This document shows positions 14,737-32,941 of a DNA stretch of 32,941 bases, piece after piece. The stretch is from an uncultured Myxococcales bacterium (GTDB taxonomy: Bacteria > Myxococcota_A > Polyangia > Fen-1088). Where the stretch lies: positions 1 through 32,941 of the forward strand of contig CALAOV010000227.1 in NCBI GenBank assembly GCA_937889515.1, in the 5' to 3' direction. The notes beneath the pieces were generated by a model. That model was not told where the DNA came from. It searched no databases and saw only the letters and a program-made list of their open reading frames with translations. A program made the translations under genes and the position numbers. The stretch's first letter is position 1, and the number at the start of each line of letters is the position of its first letter.

Positions 14737-15477
14737 ATGAATCCGGAAACGAACCTCGACCGGCGCATCCTGGTCGTCGAGGACGAGCCCGACCTGAGGG
14801 AGCTGCTGACCTACAACCTGACGGCGGCGGGGTTCACCGTGCAGGCGACGGAGAACGGCGCCGATGGTCTCGATGCGGTGCAACGCTTCGATCCCGACGT
14901 CGTGCTTTTGGACCTCATGCTCCCCGACATTCCGGGCACGGAGGTCTGCCGGCGCATTCGCGGCGACCTCAACGCGCGCCAGCCGGCGGTCATGATGCTC
15001 ACCGCCAAGGGCGAGGAGATCGATCGCGTGGTCGGCTTCGAGCTCGGCGCCGACGACTACGTGGTCAAGCCGTTCAGCGTCCGCGAGCTGATCCTGCGGG
15101 TGGGCGCCATCCTGCGCGCGCGCCGGCCGGTACAATCGAACGCCCCCAACGCGCCCCAGCGCCGCCGCTACGTGGTCGGCCCGCTGGAGCTGGACGTCGA
15201 CGGCTACCACGTGTTCGTGGCCGGTGACGAGGTGCATGTCAGCACCCTCGAGATGCGCCTGCTGGTCTATCTGGTCGAGCACCGCGGGCGCGTCCGCTCG
15301 CGCGAGGATCTGCTGGAGGACGTCTGGGGCTACAAGCCCGGCGTCTCCACCCGGACCATCGACACGCACGTCAAGCGCCTGCGCGACAAGCTGGGCGAGG
15401 CGGGCGCGCTGGTCGAGACCGTGCGCGGCACCGGCTACCGCCTCTCGGCGGACCACCCGGTGGTCGTCAAAGATTAG
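14737..15477 (+). CDS. PhoB/OmpR-family response regulator (246 aa)
   Basis: A receiver (ILVVEDEPDL; phosphoacceptor in LLDLMLPD; T in MLTAKGEE; K in VVKPF) is joined to a C-terminal winged helix. The latter shows VSTLEMRLLVYLVEHRGRV, the DVWGY motif and TRTIDTHVKRLRDKLG, with the end VRGTGYRLS. This is the PhoB subclass in layout. ATG 14737 is preferred to GTG 14716; neither has a good ribosome binding site, and the leader may be very short. No PhoR-type kinase is adjacent. Position after the PstS-like/porin/Ton operon and a Pho-box-like site support a phosphate role, though OmpR-family regulators are hard to separate by sequence alone. Confidence 0.82.
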   Translation: MNPETNLDRRILVVEDEPDLRELLTYNLTAAGFTVQATENGADGLDAVQRFDPDVVLLDLMLPDIPGTEVCRRIRGDLNARQPAVMMLTAKGEEIDRVVGFELGADDYVVKPFSVRELILRVGAILRARRPVQSNAPNAPQRRRYVVGPLELDVDGYHVFVAGDEVHVSTLEMRLLVYLVEHRGRVRSREDLLEDVWGYKPGVSTRTIDTHVKRLRDKLGEAGALVETVRGTGYRLSADHPVVVKD

Positions 15478-15562
15478 CGTCGTCGTTGCGGCGACGTCGC
15501 GGCGTCGAAGCCGGAGCGTAACCGGCCCGGCCTAGCCTGAACCTCAGCAACGGGAGGTCATC

Positions 15563-16807
15563 ATGGCAGCGTCGTCGCACGTCGTCGCGCTCGCGCTCGC
15601 GGCCGCCGCACTGGTCGGTCTGGCCATCGGCTGGAGTCAACTGCTCGCGCTCGCGCGTCACCTTTGCGGGCCGCGCGCGGTGCCCGTCCGCCGTCCGCCG
15701 ATCTCGATCCTCAAGCCCCTGTGCGGCCTCGACGACGGGCTGGCCGTGAACCTCCGCACGTTCGCGGCGCTCCCCTACCCGGACTACGAGGTGCTCCTCG
15801 GCCTGCGGCACACCGGCGATCCCGCCTATCCCCTGGCGCGGGCCGCCGTTCGCCGCTGGCCCGGACGGTTCCGGGTAGTGCTGCAAGAGGGGAAAAGCGG
15901 GCTCAACCCCAAGGTCAACCAGCTCATGACGCTGGCCCGCCACGCGCACCACGATCTGCTGGTGATCAGCGATTCGAACACCCGTGTTCCGCCCGGCTAT
16001 CTCGACGAGATCGCCGCCGCCCTCGAGGATCCGGCGGTCGGCCTCGTCACCCATCCCCTGGTCGGAGACGGCGACAGGGGCGGCGACGGCGAGACGCGAT
16101 CGTCGGCGCGCCTCGGCTCCGTCGCCGACAATCTGCATCTGTCGGGGGTGATGACACCGTCGATCGTTGCGGCCAAGCTCTTCTGCGGCAAGGACTACGT
16201 CGTCGGAAAATCGATGGCCATGCGCCGCGCGGACATCGACGCGCTGGGCGGATTCGCCTCGGTCAAGGACGTGCTCGCCGAAGACTTCGTGCTCGGTCGC
16301 GCGGTCACCGAACGGCTCCACAAGCGGATCGTCCTCGGGCGCGCGCCTGTCACCTGCATCTCCGAACGCCGCTCGCTGGCCGGATTCGTCCGCCGCTACG
16401 CGCGCTGGAGCGTCATGCAGCATCAATGTGCGGGCCTACCGGCGTATTGCGGCCTGCTGCTGCTCAACCCGGTGCTGCTCGCCACCGCCGCGGCGCTGGC
16501 CGATCCGTCGCGCGTGACCGGGGCGATCTGGGCGGTGACAGCGGCCAGCCGCCTGGCGAGCGACGCCCTGGCCGGGCGGCTCCTGCGGGGGCGCGGGCGG
16601 GGATTCCCGCTGCGCGCCTTGCTGGTGGGACCGCTGGCCGACCTGCTGGCGGGGGCCGCCTGGACGCACGGCCTGCTCAGCCGATCGATCGAATGGCGAT
16701 CGAACCGTCTGACCGTGCTGCGGGGGAGTCGGCTGCGGGTTCGGCCAGCGCGGGGCAGCCATACGCATCCAAAATCCGATACAGGCCCTGCTTCGGCAGC
16801 CGCGTGA
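15563..16807 (+). CDS. GT21 glycosyltransferase (ceramide glucosyltransferase / HpnI-like, 414 aa)
   Basis: An N-terminal membrane helix (residues 6-28) anchors a GT-A domain starting PPISILKPLCGLDDGL. GT21 motifs are present in order: the D1/D2 region DSNTRVPPGYLD, the D3 motif DVLAEDFVLGR and the RRYARW version of (Q/R)xxRW. Hydrophobic C-terminal segments follow. Relatives add sugar to ceramide or hopanoid polyols. A clean GGAGG precedes the ATG. The final 23 residues (after TVLRGSRL) look like an extension, and the gene end overlaps the convergent glycosyltransferase by 131 nt. Close to a PhoB-like gene and another lipid-type glycosyltransferase, it could make non-phosphorus glycolipids; the acceptor is not known. 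Confidence 0.82.
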   Translation: MAASSHVVALALAAAALVGLAIGWSQLLALARHLCGPRAVPVRRPPISILKPLCGLDDGLAVNLRTFAALPYPDYEVLLGLRHTGDPAYPLARAAVRRWPGRFRVVLQEGKSGLNPKVNQLMTLARHAHHDLLVISDSNTRVPPGYLDEIAAALEDPAVGLVTHPLVGDGDRGGDGETRSSARLGSVADNLHLSGVMTPSIVAAKLFCGKDYVVGKSMAMRRADIDALGGFASVKDVLAEDFVLGRAVTERLHKRIVLGRAPVTCISERRSLAGFVRRYARWSVMQHQCAGLPAYCGLLLLNPVLLATAAALADPSRVTGAIWAVTAASRLASDALAGRLLRGRGRGFPLRALLVGPLADLLAGAAWTHGLLSRSIEWRSNRLTVLRGSRLRVRPARGSHTHPKSDTGPASAAA

Positions 16808-27191: not shown

Positions 27192-27560
27192 CTACGGATT
27201 CCCGGCCAGCCGGCCCTCGGTCGCTTCGAGGGCAAGCCGGTGCATCTCCGACCGACGGGCAATCCCGACGGCCAGGTCGGCATCGGACTGCGCGCGCGCC
27301 AGGAGCAGCAGAGCCCGCGCGTCGCCCGAGCGGGCCAGCGTCTTGGCGACCTCGGCCTGGTCGATCGCCAGCTCCAGGTGCATCCGGGCGGTGGACATCC
27401 CGAAGGCACCGTGCTCGCCGGCGGCCGGCTCGGCGAACATCGCGATGGTCTTGGCGCTGCGGACCTTGGCTTCGAAATGCTCCACCTGATCGCGGGGAAG
27501 CTGTACCGACGCGCACCCGACCACCCCGAGAGCTGCGAGAGAGAAAATCAGCTGGTTCAT
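27192..27560 (-). CDS. DUF4398-like lipoprotein (122 aa)
   Basis: Signal and lipobox MNQLIFSLAALGVVGC^ASVQL. The mature part is helical: EHFEAKVRSAKTIAMFAEP, MHLELAIDQAEVAKTL and ARALLLLARAQSDADLAVGIAR. It resembles DUF4398 proteins, small helical lipoproteins of unknown function often near OmpA-like genes. The ORF-track entry to 28808 is shadow of the NtrC-type gene; ATG 27560 is where the signal begins. It lies alone between the sensor operon and the divergent NtrC-type regulator. 219 nt separate it from that gene, with nothing clear in them but a -10-like hexamer. Confidence 0.7.
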   Translation of the reverse strand: MNQLIFSLAALGVVGCASVQLPRDQVEHFEAKVRSAKTIAMFAEPAAGEHGAFGMSTARMHLELAIDQAEVAKTLARSGDARALLLLARAQSDADLAVGIARRSEMHRLALEATEGRLAGNP

Positions 27561-27767
27561 CACGGGGATTCTCAGGAGCAACGAACGGGCCAGCCGGGAC
27601 CGACGCCCAGATCCAGTAACTGCGCGGAGATCCGGGACGTCCGCCCGTCGCTTCTTCGTCGCGCCCGGCGACGCGGGTGTCGGCCCGCCGACACCCACCG
27701 GAAGCTCATCCAGCCGGTCGTATCCGCCGCGGCCTCCGCCGTCCGATTCGCCGGTAGGCCATAGGCG

Positions 27768-27773
27768 TACAAT
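27768..27773 (+). promoter_or_regulatory. -10-like hexamer giving a leaderless NtrC-type mRNA
   Basis: TACAAT (5 of 6 to consensus) ends 6 nt before the ATG at 27780, so transcription would start at or next to the start codon. No ribosome binding site precedes the gene, consistent with a leaderless message. No good -35 is visible. Confidence 0.4.
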
Positions 27774-27779
27774 GCCCCC

Positions 27780-29135
<1,356 letters not shown>

Positions 29136-29137
29136 CT

Positions 29138-30520
29138 TCAATCCCCGGCGGGTTCGGGCTCTCCCAGCCATTTGCGGAGGGTCTTGGGATCGACGCCCAG
29201 CCGCTCGGCCGCCTTGCCGCGATGACCGCCGGTCTGGCCCACCGCCCAGACGGCATAGCGCCGTTCCAGCTCGCGCATGGGAAGGATGTCGCCGTTGAAC
29301 TCGAGCGGCTCGGCGGTCTGGGTCCGTCCAATCCCGTCGGGGAGATCGGCGGCCAGCACCTCGACGTTCTGTCCCAAAAGGGCGATCTTCTCGACGGCGT
29401 GCGCCAGCTCGCGGACGTTGCCGGGCCAGCGGTAGCGGCGCAGGGTGGAAAACGCCTCCGCGGAGAAACGCCGGATCGGCGACTGGGGATACTTCGCGCG
29501 CACCTCCGCCACGAAGTGCTCCACCAGCTCGGGGATGTCTTCCGTGCGATCGCGGAGGGGGGGAATGACGATGCCGACGACGTCGAGCCGATAGAGGAGA
29601 TCCTCGCGAAACCTCTGGTCGCGCACGGCTTGCGCCAGATCGCGGTGGGTCGCGGCGATGATGCGAACGTCGACCTGCCGGACCTTGGTGCCGCCGACCG
29701 GGCGGATCGCGCCGCTCTCGAGGACGTGCAGCAGCTTGGCCTGCAGCCCCGGCGTCATCTCGGCGATCTCGTCGAGGAACAACGACCCTCCATCTGCCTC
29801 GGCGAAGAGCCCCCGTCGGTCGGCGACCGCGCCCGTGAACGCCCCCCGGACGTGTCCAAACAGCTCGCTCTCCAGCAGCGATTCGGGGAGCGCCGCGCAG
29901 TTGACCGAGACGAAAGGGCCCTCGCTGCGGCGGCTGTCGGCGTGCAGCGCGCGGGCGACCAACCCCTTGCCGGTTCCCGTCTCGCCCGTGATGATCGCCG
30001 GCGCGGGCGCGTCGGCCAGACGCTTCACACGCTCGCGGACCGCGCGGATGGCCGCGCTCCCGCCGATCAGGTTGGAGATGGAAAACCGGGTCCGCAGGGC
30101 GGTCTTGAGGATCGAAGCCTCACGCCGGACCCGCAGCTCCTCGAGCGCCCGCCCCAGGAAGATCGCCAGCTCCTCCTGCTTGAACGGCTTGGTCAGGTAG
30201 TGGTAGGCGCCCTGGCGGATCGACTCCACGGCGGTGTCGACGGCGCTGTAAGCCGTCATCACGATCACCGGTCGATCGGGATCCAGCCTGCGGGAGGCCG
30301 ACAGCAGCTCCAGCCCGTCGACGCCGGGCATCCGCAGATCGGTCACCATCGCATCGATGAAAGCCTCCGTGTTCAGGTGATCGAGCGCCTTTTGGCCCGA
30401 GCCGACGGCCACCGCGTCGTATCCCCGGTCGAAAAGCCCGTCCACGATCGTTCGTGCCATCTCGAGGTTGTCGTCGACAACCAGGATTCGGCGGCGTCGT
30501 TCAGGGATTGGGGATGGCAT
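29138..30520 (-). CDS. NtrC-family sigma-54-dependent response regulator (460 aa)
   Basis: A receiver (D61 in TDLRMPGVDG, K in LTKPF), an AAA+ domain with GETGTGKG, a perfect GAFTGA loop and LFLDEIAEM, and a short DNA-binding end (GHRGKAAERLGVDPKTLRKWL). ATG 30520 is chosen; the TTG start at 30586 would add 22 residues with no receiver similarity. It lies 72 nt after the lipoprotein gene, which has a strong sigma-54 promoter and a pair of enhancer-like sites. It probably binds these sites and controls its own operon. The kinase at 31275-32594 is the likely donor. Confidence 0.92.
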   Translation of the reverse strand: MPSPIPERRRRILVVDDNLEMARTIVDGLFDRGYDAVAVGSGQKALDHLNTEAFIDAMVTDLRMPGVDGLELLSASRRLDPDRPVIVMTAYSAVDTAVESIRQGAYHYLTKPFKQEELAIFLGRALEELRVRREASILKTALRTRFSISNLIGGSAAIRAVRERVKRLADAPAPAIITGETGTGKGLVARALHADSRRSEGPFVSVNCAALPESLLESELFGHVRGAFTGAVADRRGLFAEADGGSLFLDEIAEMTPGLQAKLLHVLESGAIRPVGGTKVRQVDVRIIAATHRDLAQAVRDQRFREDLLYRLDVVGIVIPPLRDRTEDIPELVEHFVAEVRAKYPQSPIRRFSAEAFSTLRRYRWPGNVRELAHAVEKIALLGQNVEVLAADLPDGIGRTQTAEPLEFNGDILPMRELERRYAVWAVGQTGGHRGKAAERLGVDPKTLRKWLGEPEPAGD

Positions 30521-30592: not shown

Positions 30593-31105
30593 CTAGCTTG
30601 CCGATCGGCCATAGCCAGTCGGCGCGTGCGCCGGAACGACCTTGACGGCGCCGATCTGGACCGGCTCCGTTCCCCGGACGACCGCCGAGGGGGACTCGAG
30701 CGTCATCTCTCGATAGCAACTGAGACCGCCGCGGCTCATGAACCGGAGCTGAAAGGTCTGCGTCCGGCCGGGGTCGAGCGCCACGGCCTGGTTCGCGCCC
30801 CAGGTGGAAGTCCGGATCGCGCTTCCATCGGGCGCACCGAGCCGAAAGCCATCGCCGTGGACGGCAATCGGTGTCGACGCTCCGTTGCGAACCTCCACCT
30901 CGAGGGTGGTCTCGACCAGGTCGTTTCCGGGTTGTTCCGTTTCGACCGTCTGGCTACAGCTCTGGCGTAGCACCGCGACCTGGATCCCGTCCTTGACCGC
31001 GGCTCCGCCGTTTTGCACCGGTGGCTGGAGGCCACAGGCGAGCGCCAGCGTCGTGAAGCCGAACGTGGCGGAAAAAAACGTGGCACTCAGTCTCTGTTTG
31101 GTCAT
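30593..31105 (-). CDS. Hypothetical lipoprotein in the sigma-54 operon (170 aa)
   Basis: A signal with lipobox TTLALAC^GLQPP. The mature protein is a probable beta sandwich: NDLVETTLEVEVRNGASTPIAVHGDGFRLGAPDGS, then DPGRTQTFQLRFMSR (shown as spans at about 60-130). Such folds occur in small envelope proteins with conserved Asn/Gly turns; no family name can be given. Two cysteines (C50, C132 approx.) may pair. The ATG at 31105 has GGAGGG upstream and a sigma-54 promoter whose start would be about 14 nt away. It is the first gene of a unit with the NtrC-type regulator and may report envelope state to the kinase. Confidence 0.75.
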   Translation of the reverse strand: MTKQRLSATFFSATFGFTTLALACGLQPPVQNGGAAVKDGIQVAVLRQSCSQTVETEQPGNDLVETTLEVEVRNGASTPIAVHGDGFRLGAPDGSAIRTSTWGANQAVALDPGRTQTFQLRFMSRGGLSCYREMTLESPSAVVRGTEPVQIGAVKVVPAHAPTGYGRSAS

Positions 31106-31129
31106 CGAGAACCCTCCTGGGGCAGATGG

Positions 31130-31145
31130 AGCAGGCCGCGTGCCA
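31130..31145 (-). promoter_or_regulatory. Sigma-54 (-24/-12) promoter of the lipoprotein-regulator unit
   Basis: On the minus strand TGGCACG-CGGC-CTGCT matches TGGCACG-N4-TTGCW with one mismatch. GG (-24) and GC (-12) are separated by exactly 10 nt. Initiation would fall near 31119, just before the GGAGGG and ATG of the lipoprotein. Confidence 0.75.
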
Positions 31146-31197
31146 AGCCCACGACCGCCCTGGATGCGCGGTTCGCGCCTTGGCTCGGGCGACCCGA

Positions 31198-31231
31198 GGG
31201 AAATTCTCCCGAACGGGACGGAAATTCTCCC
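31198..31231 (-). promoter_or_regulatory. Paired enhancer-like sites, 21 nt apart
   Basis: GGAAATTCTCCC occurs at 31199-31210 and 31220-31231. Each has approximate dyad symmetry (minus strand GGGAGAATTTCC). The 21-nt period is two helical turns, and the pair lies about 80-110 nt upstream of the predicted sigma-54 start. This is the expected place of NtrC-type activator sites. Confidence 0.65.
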
Positions 31232-31262
31232 CCGTTGACCCGTTCGCCCGTTCGCCCGTTTG
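31231..31262. repeat. 8-bp tandem repeat CCCGTTNN
   Basis: Four consecutive octamers, CCCGTTGA, CCCGTTCG, CCCGTTCG and CCCGTTTG, directly follow the enhancer pair and precede the kinase gene stop by 12 nt. Simple-sequence repeats of this kind are common in GC-rich intergenic DNA. Confidence 0.75.
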
Positions 31263-31274
31263 CCGCTTTCGAGC

Positions 31275-32594
31275 TCAGGGCGGGTCGGCCGGTATCTCGA
31301 CGACGGCGCGCGTCCCGTGCGGGACCAGGGGCGTCAATTCCAAGGTACCCAGGTGGCTCTTGACGATCTCGTTGGCGATGGCGAGGCCGAGCCCGGTTCC
31401 TTCGCCGCTGGGTTTGGTCGTGAAGAAGGGCTCCAGCGCCTTTTGAGCGTGCTGCGGAGAGATTCCGGCGCCATCGTCCTCCACGGCGAAGCGGATCCGC
31501 CCGTCGTGTGCGTCGAGGGAGAAGCGGACCTTCCCGCCGTTCGCGCAGGCGTCGCACGCGTTGAGGAGCAGGTTGGCCAATGCGCTCTCGAGCAGGCGGG
31601 CGTCTCCGCTGAGGGTGGGAAGATCGCTTGCCACCTGCGCCGCGAGATCAACGCCGGCCTTGCTGAAACGATGCTCCACCAGAGCCAGCGCGCCCCGTGC
31701 GATCTGACCGGCCACGAGATGGTCGGCTGAAACGCGATCTCCCCGAGCCAATCCGAGTAGGCCGCGAATCACCTGGTTGATCCGCTGGGTCTGCTCGAGA
31801 ATCGCGTTCAGCGCCGCGGTTCCCTTGTCGTCGTCGCGTAGCTTCGGCAGCAGCAGCTCGGCTCGACCCGCGATCACGCCCAGCGGCGTCGAGACTTCGT
31901 GGGCGACGCCCATGGCGAGGGTACCGAGCGCGGCCGCCCGGGTGGCGACGGCCAGCCGATCGTTCTGTTCGCCACGCATCGCGGCGACGGCGAGCTCACG
32001 TTTGAGCTCCAGCTCCTTCTTCTGGTTCCGCAAGGCGAGGCCACCGAAGGCGAGCAACAACGTCGTCGCGGTGAGGACGCTAAGAATGAGCCGCTTTTGC
32101 GCCCAGCGTTCGCGATCCCGTTCCCGCAGGGCGCTGGCGACCACCGCGATCACCCAACCGGTGAGCGGCCCCCGGCCAACGTGCGCCAGACCAACCAACG
32201 CAGATCGCGCCGGCAATCCCAGGTCGGCCGCCTCGGGGCGCGAGAGGCGAACCACCTCGTCCCCTCGACGCGCCGCCGCGACCACCGGATCCGACGCGAC
32301 GAACCTGCCATCGCTGGCCACCAAGCGGGCGCCGTCGGGCGAAAGCAGGAACAGCTTCAGGCTGCCCTGCCGCTCCGCGGTCGCAAGCCCTTTGGGCGCT
32401 TGGTCGACAAACGCCCGCTGGACGCCTTCCGTCTGAGCGCCGAAGGCGGCCGCGACCCCGCGGGCGAGGTTCACCTGTTCACCGGCGAGGTCGTCCAGCG
32501 CGGCCCGCGATTCCAGCTCCTCATCCCAATAGGCGAGGCCAGCCACCAGACCAATCGCCAGGACCACCGCCAAGAGGAGCGCCGAGGTGCGCAT
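31275..32594 (-). CDS. Membrane sensor histidine kinase, NtrB-like (439 aa)
   Basis: Two membrane helices (residues 5-24 and about 170-190, LILSVLTATTLLLAFGGLAL) flank a periplasmic sensor domain (DEELESRAALDDLAGEQVNLARG to TGWVIAVVAS). The kinase has the H box ALGTLAMGVAHEVSTPLGVIAG, the N box LANLLLNACDACANGG and ALEPFFTTKPSGEGTGLGLA. This core is the class paired with NtrC-type regulators. ATG 32594 starts directly before the first helix; the longer ORF to 32717 adds residues unlike a signal. It is upstream of the lipoprotein and NtrC-type gene on the same strand, forming a probable two-component system. Confidence 0.92.
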   Translation of the reverse strand: MRTSALLLAVVLAIGLVAGLAYWDEELESRAALDDLAGEQVNLARGVAAAFGAQTEGVQRAFVDQAPKGLATAERQGSLKLFLLSPDGARLVASDGRFVASDPVVAAARRGDEVVRLSRPEAADLGLPARSALVGLAHVGRGPLTGWVIAVVASALRERDRERWAQKRLILSVLTATTLLLAFGGLALRNQKKELELKRELAVAAMRGEQNDRLAVATRAAALGTLAMGVAHEVSTPLGVIAGRAELLLPKLRDDDKGTAALNAILEQTQRINQVIRGLLGLARGDRVSADHLVAGQIARGALALVEHRFSKAGVDLAAQVASDLPTLSGDARLLESALANLLLNACDACANGGKVRFSLDAHDGRIRFAVEDDGAGISPQHAQKALEPFFTTKPSGEGTGLGLAIANEIVKSHLGTLELTPLVPHGTRAVVEIPADPP

Positions 32595-32696
32595 GCTCGC
32601 GTTCCTATCACCTCTCGCGATCTCTTGCTGCCGAGCTCCTAGAAGCTCCAGCGCGAGCAGATTGGCGGCCATGGGTGGTGTCCAATGTGAACGGTC

Positions 32697-32712
32697 AGCA
32701 AGGAGCGGGCCG
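32697..32712 (-). promoter_or_regulatory. Possible sigma-54 promoter of the kinase gene
   Basis: On the minus strand CGGCCCG-CTCC-TTGCT keeps the invariant GG and GC with 10 nt between them. It differs from TGGCACG-N4-TTGCT at two -24 positions. It lies about 90 nt upstream of the kinase start; an enhancer-like pair is 44-76 nt further upstream. Confidence 0.45.
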
Positions 32713-32755
32713 ACCATGACCCCCGCGAGGCCCGCGGTCCCATTTCAAGACAATC

Positions 32756-32788
32756 GGGAGGATTTCCGCCGGGGTGGGGAAAGATTCC
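32756..32788 (+). promoter_or_regulatory. Second enhancer-like pair, 21 nt apart
   Basis: GGGAGGATTTCC (32756-32767) and GGGAAAGATTCC (32777-32788) resemble GGGAGAATTTCC of the first pair in 11 and 9 of 12 positions, again 21 nt apart. They sit between two divergent sigma-54-type promoters. Confidence 0.55.
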
Positions 32789-32841
32789 GCGGGCGCCGCC
32801 GCGGGCGGAGCCGATCTCTACGTGGTGCAGGCCCCACCAGC

Positions 32842-32857
32842 GGGCACGGTCGTTGCT
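32842..32857 (+). promoter_or_regulatory. Sigma-54 promoter of a gene beyond the contig end
   Basis: GGGCACG-GTCG-TTGCT matches the consensus TGGCACG-N4-TTGCW with one mismatch, at the first base; GG and GC are 10 nt apart. Initiation would be near 32869. An ATG at 32874 opens a frame that runs into the adapter sequence, so no gene product can be named. Confidence 0.65.
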
Positions 32858-32900
32858 AGTTTTGCGCGCAACGATGCGCAGTGAGGTGCTCGGATCCGCG

Positions 32901-32941
32901 AGATCGGAAGAGCGTCGTGTAGGGAAAGAGTGTAGATCTCG
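32901..32941. other. Untrimmed Illumina adapter at the contig end
   Basis: From 32901 the sequence is AGATCGGAAGAGCGTCGTGT, then continues as the standard read-through adapter of Illumina TruSeq-type libraries to the last base. It is not genomic. Everything right of 32900 should be trimmed. Confidence 0.97.

Follow-up and report, generated by a model that had tools for sequence, protein, structure and literature searches.

Among the closest described systems is ZraPSR (HydHG) of E. coli, an autoregulated σ54 two-component system whose spacer lies between the divergent zraP and zraSR genes (PMC8249747). That article, citing Rome et al. 2018, links this envelope stress response to antibiotic tolerance. 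The likeness to the locus analyzed here lies in a membrane kinase and an NtrC-type regulator that appear to be autoregulated and to act in a divergent spacer; in ZraPSR the divergent gene, zraP, makes a periplasmic accessory protein. The NtrBC system shares with it the domain order of the regulator, the σ54 mechanism, and paired activator sites that precede promoters with the GG-N10-GC signature. In BaeSR-MdtABC, a local two-component system controls the adjacent TolC/MFP/RND operon, as we propose here. RND pumps with a local regulator are usually under an OmpR-type, TetR-family, or MarR-family protein that works with σ70; the activator at the present locus differs in its predicted dependence on σ54. 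No precedent for σ54 control of such an RND operon was found in the open-access papers searched; the control module is well conserved and appears to be undescribed.

The window, by which we mean the whole stretch of 32,941 nucleotides that was analyzed, carries on its minus strand the genes for a sensor histidine kinase (31275–32594, 439 aa, from the ATG at 32594), a lipoprotein of 170 aa (30593–31105), and an NtrC-type response regulator of 460 aa (29138–30520), transcribed in that order. It is highly probable, in our view, that these genes form an autoregulated, σ54-dependent two-component system with an RND-type efflux pump and an envelope lipoprotein under its control. The autoregulated σ54/NtrC-type system had been proposed in an earlier note made from this DNA, and it is supported at the level of sequence by conserved enhancer pairs, phased promoters, and the clade of the regulator. 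The rpoN gene was found in the same genome. The window differs from its relatives in that the lipoprotein gene, with its own enhancer pair and promoter, separates the kinase and regulator genes, which are adjacent elsewhere. The last 41 bases (AGATCGGAAGAGCGTCGTGTAGGGAAAGAGTGTAGATCTCG, 32901–32941) are nongenomic: they are an Illumina TruSeq adapter left in the assembly, so that the genomic sequence stops at 32900. Because the contig finishes in these bases, the mechanically called open reading frame at 32639–32941 begins with the contaminant peptide DLHSFPTRRSSDL.

The 460-aa regulator is composed of a receiver, an AAA+ domain with a GAFTGA motif that was read in the alignment, and a C-terminal Fis-type helix-turn-helix (GGHRGKAAERLGVDPKTLRKWL). 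The Pfam matches to Response_reg (86 bits), Sigma54_activat (225 bits), and HTH_8 (23 bits) were all above cut-off, and by its domains the protein is an NtrC-type, receiver-containing bacterial enhancer-binding protein, as the earlier note had read it. Activation of σ54 promoters from remote enhancers is predicted for it from the conserved pairs and promoters. It reached 406 bits against the NtrC cut-off of 558.6 (TIGR01818), and no nitrogen genes were recognized near the locus. Scores against the ZraPSR models were far below the cut-offs, at 360.8 versus 760 bits for the regulator (NF007689) and 141.8 versus 479 for the kinase (NF007688). Divergent σ54 promoters with regulator sites between them are present here, by sequence, as in ZraPSR; however, the enhancer is a pair of GGGA-N5-TCCC elements, an Ig-like lipoprotein, and not ZraP, would be the accessory protein, and the main divergent target is predicted to be an RND efflux operon. 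The divergent gene in relatives likewise belongs to a TolC-MFP-RND operon or encodes an Ig-like lipoprotein, rather than ZraP. With both proteins under the ZraR/ZraS cut-offs and another target, the locus is not a member of ZraPSR.

The kinase consists of a hydrophobic helix, a periplasmic-type domain of ~130 aa, a second hydrophobic helix, and the Pfam domains HisKA and HATPase_c. In the structural model, two long helices flank a mixed alpha-beta domain, for which the nearest solved folds were Cache/PAS-like (e.g., WalK and DctB); these matches were weak, and the fold search with the sensor domain gave no match below E = 0.001. No PAS domain was matched by Pfam in the kinase. NtrB is cytoplasmic and contains a PAS domain, whereas this kinase looks membrane-bound, with its helices placed around a periplasmic-type domain, and the description of it as NtrB-like is therefore not borne out.

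Three σ54-like 16-mers that retain GG-N10-GC had been reported for this region, and direct reading confirmed each of them: TGGCACGCGGCCTGCT (31130–31145, minus strand), CGGCCCGCTCCTTGCT (32697–32712, minus strand), and GGGCACGGTCGTTGCT (32842–32857, plus strand), with one, two, and one mismatches, respectively, to TGGCACG-N4-TTGCW. The first is predicted to drive the lipoprotein gene and probably also the regulator gene behind it; the Shine-Dalgarno-like sequence of the lipoprotein gene, identified by direct reading (31113–31118, minus strand), stands about where the start from this promoter is expected. The second is predicted to serve the kinase gene and has equivalents in orthologues. It overlaps the mechanically longest open reading frame, and the kinase must therefore start downstream of it. 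The third is predicted to serve a divergent target, and its position is matched by that of the TolC-operon promoters of two related genomes, G010 and G002.

Two motif pairs with a 21-nt period, also reported earlier, were found where expected at enhancer distance from these promoters. Pair A (31198–31231, minus strand) is made of two copies of GGGAGAATTTCC (31198–31210 and 31219–31231), agrees with GGGA-N5-TCCC at 15/16 positions, lies 52 bp from the 31130–31145 promoter, and is the top-scoring pair genome-wide. Pair B (32756–32789) is made of GGGAGGATTTCC and GGGAAAGATTCC (32756–32768 and 32777–32789), also with a period of 21 bp, and lies 43 bp from the 32697–32712 promoter. With 14/16 positions this kinase-side pair, which the two divergent promoters share, ranks among the weaker ones. 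Its score was never equalled in 200 shuffles of the region. The pairs and their period stood, while the shorter motif first used to describe them, which the second half-site of pair B fits weakly, is better written as the 13-bp palindrome GGGA-N5-TCCC.

Copies of this palindrome in orthologous loci are mostly 21 or 22 bp apart. In a collection of 23 pairs, columns 5–9 are strongly A/T, which gives GGGAAAWTTTCCC; these columns were unused in site finding, and selection inflates the rest of the matrix. Consensus sequences served to locate both promoters and enhancers. In the genome scan that had been suggested, the palindrome replaced the original strict pattern, which was too narrow and returned a single pair in the genome. 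With no more than one mismatch, the pattern matches of G010, G014, G016, and the genome of the window (G000) fall at kinase or lipoprotein loci. The other palindrome matches in the genome of the window are inside long open frames with no σ54-like site within 260 bp, and those examined there and in other genomes lie in open frames, nearly all of them lacking a σ54-like site nearby. The AT-centred matches in G187 and G215, two genomes of 12–13 Mb, are confined to the neighborhood of the RND locus; the remaining matches have GC-rich centres, many of them in one 21-bp repeat array. Low-mismatch matches elsewhere were rejected as further sites since they are mostly coding sequence or, in G187, part of the 21-bp repeat array.

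The kinase–regulator pair recurs in G001, G002, G007, G010, G014, and G016, with regulator identities of 63–88%. Enhancer pairs with σ54-like sites were found between divergent promoters at kinase genes or before lipoprotein genes in loci L015, L026–L029, and L033. Across the class, presumably Polyangia of the Myxococcota, the kinase is beside the pump in 16/19 further RND loci, and nearly all of these have the regulator as well. An enhancer pair with a σ54-like site directed toward the TolC-side gene is present in 17/20 kinase/TolC intergenic regions, the window included, and a second σ54-like site faces the kinase in 13 of those 17. Pair-bearing regions include those of genomes of 10–13 Mb. 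Two of the 17 (L221 and L231; shuffle P = 0.10 and 0.07) match at 12/16 positions only and were accepted on position. The pairs are thus conserved upstream of orthologues, the lack of which had been named in advance as grounds for abandoning the proposal. The pair is missing from L226, L230, and L095. In L237 and L238 the regulator, kinase, and TolC genes are all oriented alike, so that a divergent promoter would not be expected. The three pair-less regions (L226 8061–8220, L230 6951–7784, and L095 1501–1660) have TTGCAAG-like intergenic sequences in common, which are perhaps the enhancer of a sister regulator clade.

On the plus strand, the divergent gene begins at 32874 and is cut by the end of the real sequence at 32900. 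Its first codons, by direct reading, encode MRSEVLGSA, predicted to be the beginning of a TolC signal peptide. A divergent target lost at the contig end had been foreseen, and it could be traced through relatives. The divergent promoter of G010 lies 53 bp from its pair and is followed, on one contig, by the genes for TolC, the adaptor, and the RND permease. The kinase contig of G002 ends after 38 codons of the divergent gene; it shares an overlap of 94 nt, with 3 mismatches, with contig C123, which continues as TolC-MFP-RND. In the genome of the window, contig C222 opens inside a TolC gene, ~60 residues from where that gene should start, and the adaptor and permease genes follow. A probable continuation past 32900 was thus traced, and the join rests on synteny; the ends of the window and C222 do not overlap, and the gap between them is estimated at ~150 bp. 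By these comparisons the divergent target is very probably the TolC-MFP-RND efflux operon. Another member of the 170-aa lipoprotein family had been considered as the target from the arrangement in G007, G014, and G016, where the orthologous RND operon (75–76%) sits instead behind an enhancer-driven lipoprotein gene; this candidate was dropped as G010, G002, and C222 point to TolC-MFP-RND.

The channel, adaptor, and permease genes lie in one operon, as in tripartite RND systems. OEP and ACR_tran exceed their cut-offs in L029, the C222 adaptor scores 183 against a cut-off of 94.9 (TIGR01730), and the permease is 83% identical to that of L029. Every NCBIfam permease subfamily model remained below cut-off, the best being NF033617 (648 versus 1250). 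The VDDA signature of the permease presumably denotes a drug-type (HAE) and not a metal-type transporter.

Control by the two-component system might conceivably stop at its own genes and the lipoprotein, the RND operon being a neighbor under other control. The divergent gene is not visible in the window, which does not overlap C222, and at three of the 19 further class RND loci (L224, L225, and L228) neither kinase nor regulator is adjacent. However, the RND operon of G010 starts directly at the divergent σ54-like promoter, the kinase contig of G002 is joined to TolC-MFP-RND by sequence overlap, and at most further class loci a σ54-like site directed toward TolC is in phase with the pair. We regard separate control of the pump as unlikely and favor its inclusion in the regulon.

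The lipoprotein gene is itself a predicted member of the regulon, by its pair and promoter, and enhancer pairs with σ54-like sites precede lipoprotein genes in relatives too. In an alignment of 13 family members, the lipobox Cys24, Cys50, and Cys130 are invariant. The protein had no match in Pfam or NCBIfam. Its AlphaFold2 model (pLDDT 80) is a predicted Ig-like beta-sandwich, for which the best PDB matches were YcdA, a Listeria protein, ApaG, YjhA, and MPT63. Exceptions within the family are the lipoprotein genes of L031, L034, and L035, which have a full or partial pair with no recognizable σ54 site, and the second-lipoprotein promoter type of L027/L028, which has no local pair. Relatives of the lipoprotein adjoin Band 7 lipoproteins, and in G058 one is found directly behind an RND permease. 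Genes for Band 7 (SPFH) lipoproteins are divergent from enhancer-driven lipoprotein genes in L026 (8443–10157) and L029 (1075–1896) and are likely further targets. A paralogue of the 170-aa protein, ~60% identical, is encoded in the genome of the window on contig C378 (L016 9568–10035); it was rejected as a further target since there is no enhancer pair or σ54-like site there.

The assignment of the enhancer to the 460-aa regulator follows its phylogeny. In a tree of 69 regulators, the 18 orthologues from pump-carrying genomes form one fully supported clade (100/99), which is that of the regulators of the element-bearing loci. These orthologues are 54–88% identical overall. The regulators found by scanning named genomes were distant relatives only (≤49% identity) and served solely as background for the tree. 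A sister clade, which includes a Corallococcus protein, holds the pump-linked regulators of L226 and L230, two loci that lack the element. The pairs might instead bind a different protein, such as an unlinked activator or the second NtrC-type regulator of the window (27780–29135), which belongs to the same superfamily, and enhancer binding is not assignable by sequence alone. We judge this very improbable: the element tracks the clade of the 460-aa regulator across the class and is absent where that clade is replaced, and the recognition region conserved among its orthologues differs in the second regulator, which has a different recognition helix, a palindrome of its own (27675–27696), and its own σ54-like site (27577–27592). 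The 460-aa regulator is thus the preferred candidate.

The spacing between promoter 16-mer and pair edge clusters at ~42, 53, 63, and 75 bp, in steps of one helical turn. For 35 values the Rayleigh R was 0.70 (p ~4e-8), and for 13 less redundant family values it was 0.86 (p ~7e-5); the p-values are a guide only because the species are related, and the sites were picked within a set distance. Face-of-helix dependence with two NtrC sites is described for Klebsiella nifLA (Minchin et al. 1989, as cited in PMC7408454).

Promoter-like sites by themselves are not enriched in the window (35 observed versus 44.6 expected at ≤3 mismatches), and the original 12-mer is weakly so (3 versus 1.16 expected, with 16% of shuffles equally high). 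The combination of a pair with at least 14/16 positions and a σ54-like site 15–180 bp distant was found twice in the window versus 0 times in 120 first-order shuffles; 0.99 Mb of other natural DNA contained it once, with an out-of-range distance of 161 bp. An origin of the motifs by chance in GC-rich DNA has a negligible probability: each element alone occurs about as often as expected by chance, but the combination is absent from shuffles, and its conservation over the class with phased spacing refutes this reading as far as sequence can.

In the mechanism that we propose for the autoregulated system, the membrane kinase would sense a periplasmic or envelope signal and phosphorylate the NtrC-type regulator. 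Judging from sequence and conservation, two GGGA-N5-TCCC elements two helical turns apart would each be bound by a dimer of the regulator, the pair of dimers lying on the same face of the DNA. From the pair at 32756–32789 the regulator would activate two divergent σ54 promoters, that of the kinase gene, with positive feedback as the result, and that of the TolC-MFP-RND operon, which is interrupted near its start by the contig end and would continue on C222. From the pair at 31198–31231 it would activate the lipoprotein gene and, probably, the regulator gene that follows. More speculatively, the lipoprotein may be a periplasmic accessory of the system or provide feedback, in the manner of ZraP in ZraSR.

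Many σ54 activators of this group are uncharacterized, and for one of them the analysis provides the regulator, a predicted binding site, the promoter geometry, and a target set. It ties σ54 to the control of a class-conserved efflux pump, and the helically phased spacing makes the geometry of paired-enhancer activation testable over natural variants. A target cut by a contig end proved recoverable through synteny and contig overlap. As a tentative extension, the locus may represent a module for envelope defence throughout the class. In it, σ54 control through a dedicated kinase and a phased enhancer pair would govern an RND pump of a distinct subfamily, and Ig-like lipoproteins, joined in some genera by Band 7 lipoproteins, would be co-regulated as periplasmic accessories with feedback on the kinase.

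Additional regulatory elements were observed near these loci. In G002 (L015 11739–14784) a second kinase/regulator pair stands beside the first, its regulator being 50% identical to the 460-aa protein, and a third, orphan kinase (15382–16710) bears the divergent TolC promoter. In G187 (L234 1–1226) an extra enhancer pair with a σ54-like site precedes a second outer-membrane-factor-like gene at the opposite end of the RND locus. The window itself contains a fourth σ54-like site, TGGCCCGTTCGTTGCT (27577–27592, minus strand, one mismatch), which was missed by the earlier note and belongs to another gene, standing just before a small lipoprotein open reading frame (27198–27564). Divergent from this frame is the orphan NtrC-type regulator (27780–29135), which carries GSFTGA, and a perfect palindrome, GGGTGTCGGCCCGCCGACACCC, is found at 27675–27696. 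The region 27198–27780 is probably a second σ54 circuit.
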